Of a stretch of 64,000 nt of DNA, positions 53,790-63,246 are shown piece after piece. The stretch comes from Blakeslea trispora (Eukaryota > Mucoromycota > Mucoromycetes > Mucorales > Choanephoraceae). How positions within the stretch are numbered: position 1 is the first letter of the stretch; the number at the start of each line of letters is the position of its first letter. The stretch is from the NCBI GenBank assembly GCA_025331445.1, contig JAIWNE010000070.1, positions 62,001 to 126,000 of the forward strand, given 5' to 3'. The notes under the pieces were generated by a model. The model did no database searches. It had not been told where the DNA came from and was given only the letters and a program-made list of their open reading frames with translations. A program made the position numbers and the translations under genes.

Positions 53790-54234
53790 ATGAAAATACC
53801 TGGCATACACAGTGAAAGACTGTTTACTATTTTCTCCAAGCCGAGTAATCTACGCCAAACGACCGATCTATTCAACATCAAGATCCTGCCCAACCAAACA
53901 CTTGATAACCGCTTTGCACTCATTACCAGCAAAAAGAAGATTAGCAAGTCGGCTGTCATCAGAAATAGAGCTGACCGTAGATTAAAAGCAGCATTACAAG
54001 CTGAGCATGATACTATTAAAATTAAAGGTAAAGCCAATGATAAACAACAGCATAAATATTCATCATGGTTTAGGCTACGACTTTTTGTTCTACTTGAAAC
54101 CTGATCTAGTGACAGCACCTTGGAAGACTATCATTCATGAGCTATCCAGTTCACTCGAGAAAATCCAGTCTATGTCTGTCAATCAATCAAAGAAAAAGAC
54201 GTTTAAAAAGCCCAAGTCACATGACAAAGCATAA
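53790..54234 (+). CDS. Bacterial-type RNase P protein component-like (RnpA fold) protein, probably mitochondrial
   Basis: Two exons (53790-54027 and 54074-54234) give 132 residues, close to bacterial RnpA (about 110-130). The RnpA pattern is complete: NRFALITSKKKISKSAVIRN (compare R-x-G-x-x-x-S-K-K-x-G-x-A-V-x-R-N), continuing RADRRLKAAL (the RNR box and following helix that bind RNase P RNA), then GYDFLFYLKPDLVTAPW (the GxDxVxxxRP strand) and a final helix HELSSSLEKI. The tail KKKTFKKPKSHDK is basic. The intron falls before GYDF and joins in phase. RnpA helps the RNA subunit cleave tRNA 5' leaders. Here it may serve mitochondrial RNase P or be a mitoribosomal or RNA-binding derivative. The N-terminus is weakly basic; no strong presequence is obvious. 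Confidence 0.75.
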
Positions 54235-54403: not shown

Positions 54404-56118
54404 ATGCCTGAATTAAAGATTTTCTCCAGAGCTGAAGTAGCCAAGCACAACACAGAAGATGACTGCTGGATCATCATTGATGGTGCTGTTTATGATGTCT
54501 CCAAATTCGCCATGTTACACCCAGGTGGCAGTCAGATCTTGATTGAATTAGGTGGAAAGGATGTTACTGGTAAGAACAGAAGCTAAGCAGAGAGAAGATC
54601 GTTATTTATTTACTTTCGTTCTTCTTCTAGAGGATTTCTATGGTCTTCATCGTCAAGAAGTCTTGATCAAATACGCTCCTCGTCTCAAGATTGGTTCTAT
54701 TGAAAATGAAGTCTCTCAAGTCAGTATTCCTTCACCTGGAGATTTGTCTGCTGTTCCTTATGCTGAACCAAGTTATTGGATGGGCTTCAAGAGTCCCTAC
54801 TTCAAGTAACGTGTTTTATTACTTCAACAAATGTCATGGATGACTAACAAGAATTTTATAGTGAGAGTCATACTCGCTTCCGTAAAGCTGTTCGTACTAT
54901 CTATGACGAAATCAAGCCTGATGCTGTCATGGCTGAAGATCAAGGCACATATCCTACAAAAGAATTGTATGCCAAATTAGGTGAAGCAGGTCTTTTAGCT
55001 AGTCAAATTGGTCCTGGTCCTTGGTAAGGAGACTCAATGAAACAACGCCTAGCTTTGATACTAACAAGCAATTTAAAAAAAAAAGGTTAAAGGGTCTTCA
55101 GTTGCCAGCTGGTATTAAGCCTGAAGAATTTGATTATTTCCACGAATTGATTGCTCATCAAGAAACAGCTCGTTTGGGTGCTCCTGGTTTCACTGACAGT
55201 ATTTCATCTGGTTATAGTATCGGTCTTCCCCCCATCTTCAACTTTGGTAGCCCCGAATTAAAGGCTCGTGTTGTCCCTGAAGTCTTGTTGGGTAAGAAGC
55301 GTATCTGTTTGGCAATCACAGAACCCTATGCTGGTTCAGATGTAGCCAGAATCCGTACTACAGCCAAGAGAACACCCGATGGTAAGCACTTTATCATTAA
55401 CGGTGTCAAGAAGTGGATTACCAACGGTGTCTTTTCTGACTATTTCACTGTGGCTGCCACCACTGAAAAGGGCATTACCATGTTCTTTGTTGAAAGAGAC
55501 GATAACATCGAAACCAAGCAGATCAAGACCTCTTACTCTGCTTCAGCTGGTACTTCTTATATTACCTTTGAGAATGTCAAGGTTCCTGCTGAAAACATCT
55601 TGGGCAAAGAAGGCAAAGGCTTCCAGGTGATCATGTACAACTTCAACCATGAGCGTTGGTATATCTGTGGTGCTGTTCTTGGTGCCTCTCGTTCTGTAGT
55701 TGAAGATTGTTTCAAATGGGCTGTTCAACGTAAGGTCTTTGGTAAGCGTTTGATCGATCAACCTGTTATCCGCAACAAGTTGGCCACCATGATCTCTCAA
55801 TTGGAAGCCGTAGAGAACTGGCTTGAGAATATCACATTCCAGATGTGTAACATGAGTTATGAGGAGCAATCGGTCAAATTAGCTGGCCCTATTGCCTTGT
55901 TGAAATATCAAGTGACTCGTGTCTCTCACAACATTGCAGATGATGCTTGTCAGATCTTTGGTGGTCGTGCCATCACCAAGACAGGCATGGGTCGTCAAAT
56001 CGAAGCATTCCAAAGAACATACAAGTTTGGTGCTATTCTCGGTGGTTCTGAAGAAATCATGGCTGACCTTGGTATCAGACAAGCCATGAAATACTATCCT
56101 GGAAACGCCAGACTTTAA
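54404..56118 (+). CDS. Cytochrome b5 / acyl-CoA dehydrogenase fusion protein
   Basis: Four exons: 54404-54569, 54631-54805, 54862-55023 and 55086-56118, 511 residues. Residues 1-80 are a cytochrome b5 domain with heme-ligand motif MLHPGGSQIL and the second His in FYGLHRQEVL. An acyl-CoA dehydrogenase of about 400 residues follows: AITEPYAGSDVA (FAD/substrate loop), KKWITNGVFSDYF, QRKVFGKRLIDQPVIR and DDACQIFGGRAITKTGMGR. At the usual medium-chain catalytic position (Y-E-G-T) it reads AILGGSEEI, without that Glu. A Glu in NFNHERW aligns with the alternative catalytic Glu of isovaleryl/long-chain enzymes, which I infer is the base. The fused b5 could carry electrons from the flavin. No peroxisomal SKL or clear presequence. 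Confidence 0.93.
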
Positions 56119-61342: not shown

Positions 61343-63246
61343 CAGAGATAAGACCCAGCAACGATTCAGCGTTATCTCTATGCCAAGCCATTTTCTCTCT
61401 CTCTCTCTTTTTTTAAGGTAAGGCAAAAGATACCAATAAATCCAAACAGAAAAGCATAACAACAAAATGCTGAGAGAAATGGATGTCTTTGAGGCATATG
61501 GATCGATTGTTATTTTGTTGATCACAAAACGGTCTGGGATTTTTCAGTAAATAAGCGTGGCTCTAATGGGCTAATTACAAGACAGAAAATTGATTGTTTG
61601 TTGTTCTCAGATGAACAAAGTTATCATTGCGGATAAACAGAGAGAAATTCCATTTAAGATCTTAAAGTAGTAAGGTCAATAGCACCTATAAAAGATACGC
61701 GATTTACTTTATGAAAATGATTGGCCCCTTTTTCTTTCTATTTAGGCATATTATTGTATTTACAAACAAAGTATAGAGAGAAAGGGAAAACAAACATGAA
61801 ATAGAGTCAAAATTTAACTTATAATAGTGTAGGCAAGGGAGGGGAGGCTAAGTGATGAGGTACTCGCGCACAAAAATATAAAGCGATGATTTTGTGCCAA
61901 TAATGCGATTGCTATCTTCGTTGTTCAATACACAGCCTTATGAAGTATTCTTTCTTTGTTGAATGGAGCAAGACATCATATTAGAACTAAAAAAAAAGGG
62001 GGGAAACTATGAATATTAAACGCATAGCAACAATTACGCTCTTTTGTTTAGCTATCATCAATATTTTTCAGATAAAAGACATGAATACATACCATTATTT
62101 GCTGCATTTTCCCTTCTGAAATCAACAGCTCCTAACGGAGTTTAAATAAATACAAGAAGCATCAGATTCTTGATGAGAAAACTTTATTAAAATACATTGC
62201 ATAGTTGTTTTAAACCAATATTGGCAAATGTGTTTTGCCTCTTTAAGCATGAAAGATAGTTTAGCTAAAGAGAAATTTTAGGAGATTTATAAAGTCGTTT
62301 TTTTCGATAAACTGATACTATATATACATGATGCAAACTGTAGAACTATACGAATTCTGAAATGAATTCCTATTGTCTTGCTTAATGTTACACATTCCAA
62401 TTCTTGTAATTCGTGATTTGCGCGTTAAAAAAAAAATTCAAGATCTATCTATTTGACTAGAATAAATAGCTTATGAACAAAGAAATAAAGATTGTTATTT
62501 TGATCAGATGACTAGTAATACCCTTTATCCAATCATTTCAAAGAACAAATGCTACTACTGTTTCTTTTTTTATAAGCACATCTAAAATGCTTCAAATTGC
62601 TAGTTTGGTTAAAGAGTATTCCTTTATGTTTCTTGTCCACATGAGTACAAGTAAAAAAAAAAATCCAAAAATAAAAATAAAAACCCTAAAGCTGAAACCT
62701 TGCCTTTTCTGAATAAAGCAAATCATCGAATTGTAGCACTTTTTTTCAAAAATCAAGTTACACAGAACAAAGGCTATTTTTCTTTTCAAAAAAAGATGCT
62801 GTCAACTGGATTTGTTCTTGCGTCTACTGGTCAACAGTTTCTTTAACAAGTACTGAAAAGAGAGAAAGAAAGATACCCCAAAAGACGATAAAAAAAGAGA
62901 GACAGCCGCAAGTGTAGTTTTTCTATATAAAAGAATTTATTATTCTATATTGAAAGAAACTAAAACATTCATCTTTACATCTCATTGGCTTGTAGCATAA
63001 CATGTTGAAATAATTGCATCTGTGTGGGAGAAGGCAAAGTCTGCATGAGAGCAAATCGGTTTCAATGACTGGTTCTTTCTATTTTTCTAAAAAAGGAAAT
63101 CAAATGCCGCTTTGTATCCAATCCTTTATGCTACTCTTTTGAATACAGAGCAATGATTGGCGAGATATGTTCTATATAAGACCTGTTTGATTTGTTTTTT
63201 TTCTCAACCTAATTAATTTTGCTTTTTTCTCTCTCTCTCGTTCTAA
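60813..63246. other. Divergent intergenic region, no gene seen
   Basis: About 2.4 kb between TRS120 and the last gene. It includes a large GA/CT inverted repeat at 61310-61417 (listed separately) and CT-rich leaders (60994-61018 and 63226-63240). Open frames are low-complexity. Confidence 0.6.
61310..61417. repeat. Inverted repeat: GA run facing CT run with inner AGAGATAA/TTATCTCT stem
   Basis: A(9)(GA)n at the left pairs with (CT)nT(7) at the right. Between them AGAGATAA (about 61342-61349) and TTATCTCT (about 61372-61379) form an 8-bp perfect stem with a 22-nt loop. The whole could fold as a long hairpin in RNA or cruciform in DNA. Confidence 0.75.

Follow-up and report, generated by a model that had tools for sequence, protein, structure and literature searches.

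The stretch of DNA analysed here, called the window below, comprises 64,000 nt of the genome of Blakeslea trispora (positions 62,001 to 126,000 of contig JAIWNE010000070.1, assembly GCA_025331445.1). At 53790-54234 on its plus strand lies a two-exon gene encoding a member of the family of RnpA, the protein component of bacterial RNase P. The gene is organised as follows.

53790..54027, plus strand: exon 1, beginning with the ATG at 53790 and encoding residues 1-79 and the first base of codon 80; the public protein P0001 is identical.
53928..53981, plus strand: the RNR signature of RnpA, SKKKISKSAVIRNRADRR, residues 47-64, reading RNR..R and then a second Arg, as in Alphaproteobacteria.
54028..54073, plus strand: spliceosomal phase-1 intron of 46 nt, GT...AG.
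54074..54234, plus strand: exon 2, the rest of codon 80 to residue 132, including the TAA stop codon that ends at 54234.
54076..54102, plus strand: YDFLFYLKP, residues 81-89, the last strand of the RnpA core (strand 81-87 in the structure model).

The product is a basic protein of 132 amino acids (pI 10.3; 27 Lys plus Arg against 11 Asp plus Glu) with a lysine-rich tail. A public B. trispora model named 'hypothetical protein', BD560DRAFT_407368 (P0001), is 100% identical over the full length, and the two exons and single phase-1 intron placed at 53790-54234 by a preliminary description of this DNA are exact in their coordinates. This is an ordinary nuclear gene. Its GC content is 0.39, compared with 0.373 for the window. 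The order of the two motifs is that of RnpA, SKKKISKSAVIRNRADRR (residues 47-64) being followed by GYDFLFYLKP (residues 80-89).

By its testable features the protein belongs to the RnpA family. It matches PF00825 (Ribonuclease_P) with 45.5 bits against a cut-off of 22.3 (E = 8.6e-12), over positions 24-108 of the 109 in the profile. This is the top match in a search of all Pfam families; four families appear at E ≤ 1, with no ribosomal protein among them. TIGR00188, the NCBI equivalog for rnpA, is passed narrowly (39.5 bits against a cut-off of 38.35). All 20 fungal relatives compared match PF00825 and 19 of them match TIGR00188, in both cases at E ≤ 0.01 and not at the curated cut-off. The RNR triplet occupies residues 58-60 and is followed by R63 and R64. 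Both of its arginines are invariant in the 20 fungal sequences, where the sole invariant positions are K48, K49, V56, R58, R60, R63 and R64; all of these fall in the stretch leading up to the RNR helix or at the helix itself. A profile-profile comparison with seven sequences of alphaproteobacterial type, two of them so named, gave 99.4%. A search of the PDB with the single sequence returned no real relative (the best match was an ABC transporter at E = 1.9), and a family profile was needed to reach the known structures.

The predicted structure has the fold of RnpA, i.e. alpha-beta-beta-beta-alpha-beta-alpha, with a predicted local distance difference test score (pLDDT) of 89.6. The model was made from an alignment of 106 rows, 84 of which are bacterial-type matches. 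An earlier prediction from eight fungal rows alone was poor (pLDDT 50.9), yet gave the same order of elements. When the model was compared with known structures using Foldseek, all 16 matches at E ≤ 1e-3 were RNase P proteins, and these also ranked first with VIA-align. The preliminary description had asked whether another family of the S5-domain-2-like fold, such as ribosomal protein uS9, might match better than RnpA. By both Pfam and predicted fold the RNase P protein comes first; chain I of the small subunit of the M. smegmatis ribosome, which we take to be uS9, is reached only at a Foldseek E of 0.11.

A collection of about 5.8 billion proteins was searched three times for relatives, yielding 12 matches, the best 120 of 135 and the best 120 of 237. 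Among the matches listed, those with names come from at least 19 fungal species in 16 genera; 16 of the species belong to the Mucorales, the others being two of Umbelopsis and Smittium culicis. Eighteen of the 20 named fungal records are titled 'hypothetical' or 'uncharacterized' and one 'unnamed protein product', while that of Smittium is titled 'Ribonuclease P protein component'; the same automatic label is borne by several metagenome copies. There is no name from Dikarya, Rhizopus or Mortierella among the matches listed. These are weak absences, because the searches can only find predicted proteins that are similar in length and have five-residue words in common with the query, and the majority of matches carry no species name. 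Four of the models (P0004, P0005, P0009 and P0014) have extra residues exactly at the site of the Blakeslea intron, as if an intron had been read through, which suggests that the position of the intron is shared. The public model for Choanephora cucurbitarum (P0002) lacks most of the N-terminal helix seen in relatives of the MKIPGI type; this is probably a gene-model error.

The origin of the gene was examined with a profile built from the fungal sequences only. Two sets of genomes were searched with it, 142 belonging to the Alphaproteobacteria, the class of Maricaulis maris, and 150 spread over the phylum of that species. At E ≤ 1e-3 it found a match in 126 of the 142 alphaproteobacterial genomes, compared with 46 of the 150 from the whole phylum; at E ≤ 1e-6 the corresponding counts are 116 and 33. 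PF00825 detects RnpA in 147 of the 150 phylum-wide genomes, so the lower rate in that sample is not due to absence of the gene. Eleven genomes are known to be common to the two samples, and every one of them matches the fungal profile, with E of 5.3e-6 or better. The alphaproteobacterial excess fits descent from the mitochondrion. Scores of single loci point the same way. The median for 80 loci obtained with an alphaproteobacterial query is 53.6 bits (range 32.4-69.8; 53.5 for the 75 titled Alphaproteobacteria, the other five being titled only bacterium or proteobacterium), a value biased upward by choice of the loci with a pattern that holds AVIRN, which is common to the fungi. Thirty Pseudomonadota loci that carry no class name, selected for the highest Pfam scores, have a median of 14.0 bits (2.7-23.7). 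E. coli scores 10.9, Geobacillus 29.8, B. subtilis 29.6 and S. aureus 15.5 bits. The class and phylum samples were not chosen by the AVIRN pattern, and the 30 best class-sample loci, while chosen as best, score 47.5-70.4 bits, yet only two of them have AVIRN. The second Arg after RNR..R is present in 74 of the 75 loci titled Alphaproteobacteria and in all 20 fungi, compared with none of the 30 other Pseudomonadota (four of these have no readable motif).

In a tree of 73 rows the fungi form one clade (100/99), and together with 35 rows of an alphaproteobacterial set they are separated from 19 others (100/99). Fifteen of the 35 rows are class-sample members without a name, and the title of another, L067, says no more than 'uncultured proteobacterium'. 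The fungi are placed within the alphaproteobacterial set, in an alignment of 134 columns that was flagged as few and in which Smittium is on a long branch; P0002 was left out. By the approximately unbiased (AU) test, a single clade is not rejected for the alphaproteobacterial set (p = 0.56), nor for the fungi when Smittium is excluded (p = 0.569), so the data are compatible with the fungi being either sister to the Alphaproteobacteria or nested in them. Neither this tree nor the larger one considered below includes Mollicutes, Rickettsiales identified by name, or RnpA from other eukaryotes. On these comparisons the gene most likely descends from the mitochondrial ancestor; this is clearly preferred over donors of gamma- or betaproteobacterial type, but is not proven.

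We note a small group of alphaproteobacterial-type RnpA proteins (L115, L126, P0035, P0044 and P0048) in the larger tree. L115 is the class genome that scores highest with the fungal profile (69.4 bits), and P0035 reads RISKSAVIRNR, near the fungal ISKSAVIRNRADRR.

Nuclear RNase P looks like the usual enzyme in Blakeslea, since its RNA (RF00009, 113.3 bits) and Rpp30 are both matched in the genome, the latter with its main match on contig C273. On contig C13 there is a second, split match to RNase_P_p30 with in-frame stop codons (near 282428-282842, minus strand), which could be either a second copy broken by an intron or a decayed one. Neither the RPM2 domain (PF08579) nor the PRORP metallonuclease domain (PF16953) is matched in the genome, in searches made without a positive control. 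Fungi apparently lack PRORP, according to the available part of a review (PMC10941002). Two distant relatives have starts resembling a presequence, namely P0132 of Smittium (MILYRLNAIKAFARSYTS) and P0033 (MLRTLLKRAFSTTTT). The latter is a metagenome protein of 104 amino acids that appears to be an exon-1 fragment of a diverged fungal-type RnpA. The first 20 residues of three proteins of the MKIPGI type contain three or four basic residues and one acidic one; these figures are simple counts and helical moments, and not the output of a predictor.

Ten reading frames in the window, either nearby or among the larger ones, were scanned with Pfam. Eight match families and two do not; the matches are to Cyt-b5, acyl-CoA dehydrogenase, TH1, CNOT1, TRAPPC9 and RFWD3, which fits a eukaryotic chromosome. 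Downstream of the RnpA-like gene and on the same strand (54404-56118, plus), a cytochrome b5 frame stands in tandem with an acyl-CoA dehydrogenase frame. These probably belong to a single fusion gene with several exons, which would start about 170 bp beyond the RnpA stop codon.

What, then, does the protein do? We consider it quite probable that the product of this gene is the protein subunit of mitochondrial RNase P, a true RnpA of mitochondrial-endosymbiont descent whose gene has moved to the nucleus; its import, RNA partner and activity are what we infer. The basis for this lies in homology, the predicted fold, the nuclear location and conservation in early-diverging fungi, together with the affinity to Alphaproteobacteria as against other Pseudomonadota and three Firmicutes, and the presence of a separate nuclear RNase P RNA and Rpp30. 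The cleft of bacterial RnpA touches the 5′ leader of pre-tRNA, and its RNR helix touches the RNase P RNA. By analogy, the Blakeslea protein would be made in the cytosol and imported into mitochondria, where this small basic protein would bind an RNase P RNA encoded in the mitochondrial DNA (mtDNA). Its cleft would touch the pre-tRNA 5′ leader and its RNR helix the RNase P RNA, which would then remove the leader from the precursor tRNA. The 2005 study of Seif and colleagues is said to have taken in Rhizopus, Mortierella and Smittium, and Smittium is also a genus that yielded an RnpA relative in the protein searches. The title of that paper, known through the papers that cite it, speaks of bacteria-like RNase P RNAs in zygomycetes (Seif et al. 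2005), and rnpB is reported in the mtDNA of Linnemannia amoeboidea (Mortierellaceae) in the accessible text of PMC8856043.

A number of observations weigh against this assignment. Proteins of the MKIPGI type begin at helix 1 of RnpA and have no separate presequence. The Asn of RNR is substituted in four of the 20 fungal relatives (P0122, P0124, P0125 and P0126). In a tree enlarged to 145 rows by 84 unlabelled matches, no nearest bacterial group is resolved for the fungi; their neighbours there are Alphaproteobacteria and several further groups, one of which has 23 rows and includes a Peregrinibacteria sequence. No RnpA is named from the family of Linnemannia (which does not belong to the Mucorales), from Rhizopus or from Mortierella among the matches listed. 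In the Blakeslea assembly (285 contigs, 37.2 Mb) cox1, cob and RF00010 are all without a match; lack of cox1 and cob indicates that the mtDNA is most likely absent from the assembly, and the blank for RF00010 is therefore uninformative. The mitogenomes of Mucor indicus, Rhizopus microsporus and Umbelopsis nana are described with protein genes, tRNAs and two rRNAs, and rnpB is unmentioned in the available text of the three papers (PMC11210418, PMC11107855, PMC13159603). RNase P RNA is described as the major remaining challenge of annotation, with many unidentified and genes often missed (PMC10352661, in the part available), so this silence is weak but real evidence. It lowers our confidence in a mitochondrial RNase P protein, and raises it in an alternative in which the protein retains the fold of RnpA but now serves some other RNA process in mitochondria (for example in the mitoribosome or RNA degradation), with tRNA 5′ processing performed by another, Rpm2-like protein. 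That alternative draws further on the substituted Asn, and on a 2016 review that, in its accessible part, has the mitochondrial RNase P of fungi made up of RPM1 RNA and the unrelated protein RPM2 (PMC4919922). We regard it as unlikely, however. The invariant positions in the fungal sequences all fall before or at the RNR helix, PF00825 is both the best of all Pfam families and matched by every one of the 20 relatives, and the genome gave no match to RPM2 or PRORP in the uncontrolled searches described above. Re-use in mitoribosomes had been offered in the preliminary description beside retention of the ancestral mitochondrial protein. We found nothing to support the former, while the latter is the best-supported reading, given the alphaproteobacterial affinity, the mtDNA-encoded RNase P RNA of early-diverging fungi, the presequence-like starts of two relatives and the separate nuclear RNase P RNA and Rpp30.

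The remaining alternatives concern where the gene came from and where the protein acts. Horizontal transfer from a bacterium such as a fungal endobacterium, instead of mitochondrial inheritance, could still have provided a protein serving in mitochondrial RNase P. These fungi are known hosts of endobacteria, few eukaryotes are reported to have RnpA in the sources available, and the 145-row tree leaves the nearest bacterial group open. On the other side, the distribution of the doubled Arg and the 73-row tree oppose a donor of gamma- or betaproteobacterial type, and a single clade over Mucorales, Umbelopsis and Smittium requires the event to be old (the sampling by name did not extend to Mollicutes or to most other phyla); such a transfer is in our view improbable. 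A role in nuclear or cytosolic RNase P could be argued from the lysine-rich tail and from the Blakeslea-type protein having no obvious cleavable presequence. It is very hard to reconcile with a genome that has its own nuclear RNase P RNA (113.3 bits) and Rpp30, and with the presequence-like N-terminal extensions of P0033 and Smittium P0132. Contamination of the assembly by bacterial DNA has nothing in its favour except the bacterial name of the family. The gene carries an intron, its neighbours are of eukaryotic type, its GC content is close to that of the window and its relatives occur in 18 further named fungal species, so this explanation can be dismissed for practical purposes, as the preliminary description had held.

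We may compare the protein with known systems. Bacterial RnpA (PF00825, TIGR00188; structures 1A6F of B. subtilis and 3Q1Q of the T. maritima holoenzyme) differs in that the Blakeslea gene is nuclear and has an intron. Compared with the B. subtilis protein, that of Blakeslea has two additional residues ahead of the RNR helix; it also has the doubled Arg found in Alphaproteobacteria and the lysine-rich tail, and there is no match to bL34 in the ten window frames scanned with Pfam. Nuclear RnpA genes are already known in eukaryotes, in prasinophytes (Lai et al. 2011, as cited) and Andalucia godoyi (available text of PMC7050145). The mitochondrion-targeted RnpA of this jakobid is likewise nuclear and diverged, but A. 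godoyi is a protist, and the likeness is by description only. The prasinophytes are green algae for which the organelle is not established in the same source. Prasinophyte RnpA is reported to rescue a temperature-sensitive E. coli rnpA mutant and to support in vitro cleavage with organelle RNA, the cleavage being described for the organelle RNA of Ostreococcus with its P protein (2016 review PMC4919922, in part). A 2022 review (PMC9181182) states, in the passage available, that such mitochondrial RNAs have no proven activity in vitro, whether alone or combined with the protein of the same organism, and that some partners may still await discovery. The yeast RPM1/RPM2 enzyme acts in the same compartment and performs the same task as proposed for the Blakeslea protein, and its RNA is encoded in mtDNA; it uses RPM2, whereas the Blakeslea genome has no RPM2-domain match (no positive control).

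No report of a fungal RnpA was found in the literature searched; an earlier mention may exist in the key RNase P papers (Seif et al. 2005, 2006; Lechner et al. 2015; Daoud et al. 2012; Lai et al. 2011). This is a member of the RnpA family in a kingdom for which another protein is accepted as the partner in mitochondrial RNase P. On balance we lean to the view that early-diverging fungi keep the whole ancestral mitochondrial RNase P, comprising a bacteria-like RNA in mtDNA and a nuclear-encoded alphaproteobacterial RnpA, and that RPM2, the protein used by yeast, took the place of RnpA later, inside the fungal lineage. If so, the missing protein partner of the fungal mitochondrial RNase P RNAs would already be present in the genomes as a hypothetical protein. 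The range of the ancestral mitochondrial RnpA would grow from jakobids (and prasinophytes, subject to the organelle) to fungi, and the switch to RPM2 would fall inside the fungi. The moulds that carry RnpA can be cultured and some are genetically tractable. The fungal RnpA is a concrete protein to combine with the zygomycete mitochondrial RNAs, so that reconstitution of a fungal mitochondrial RNase P becomes testable.
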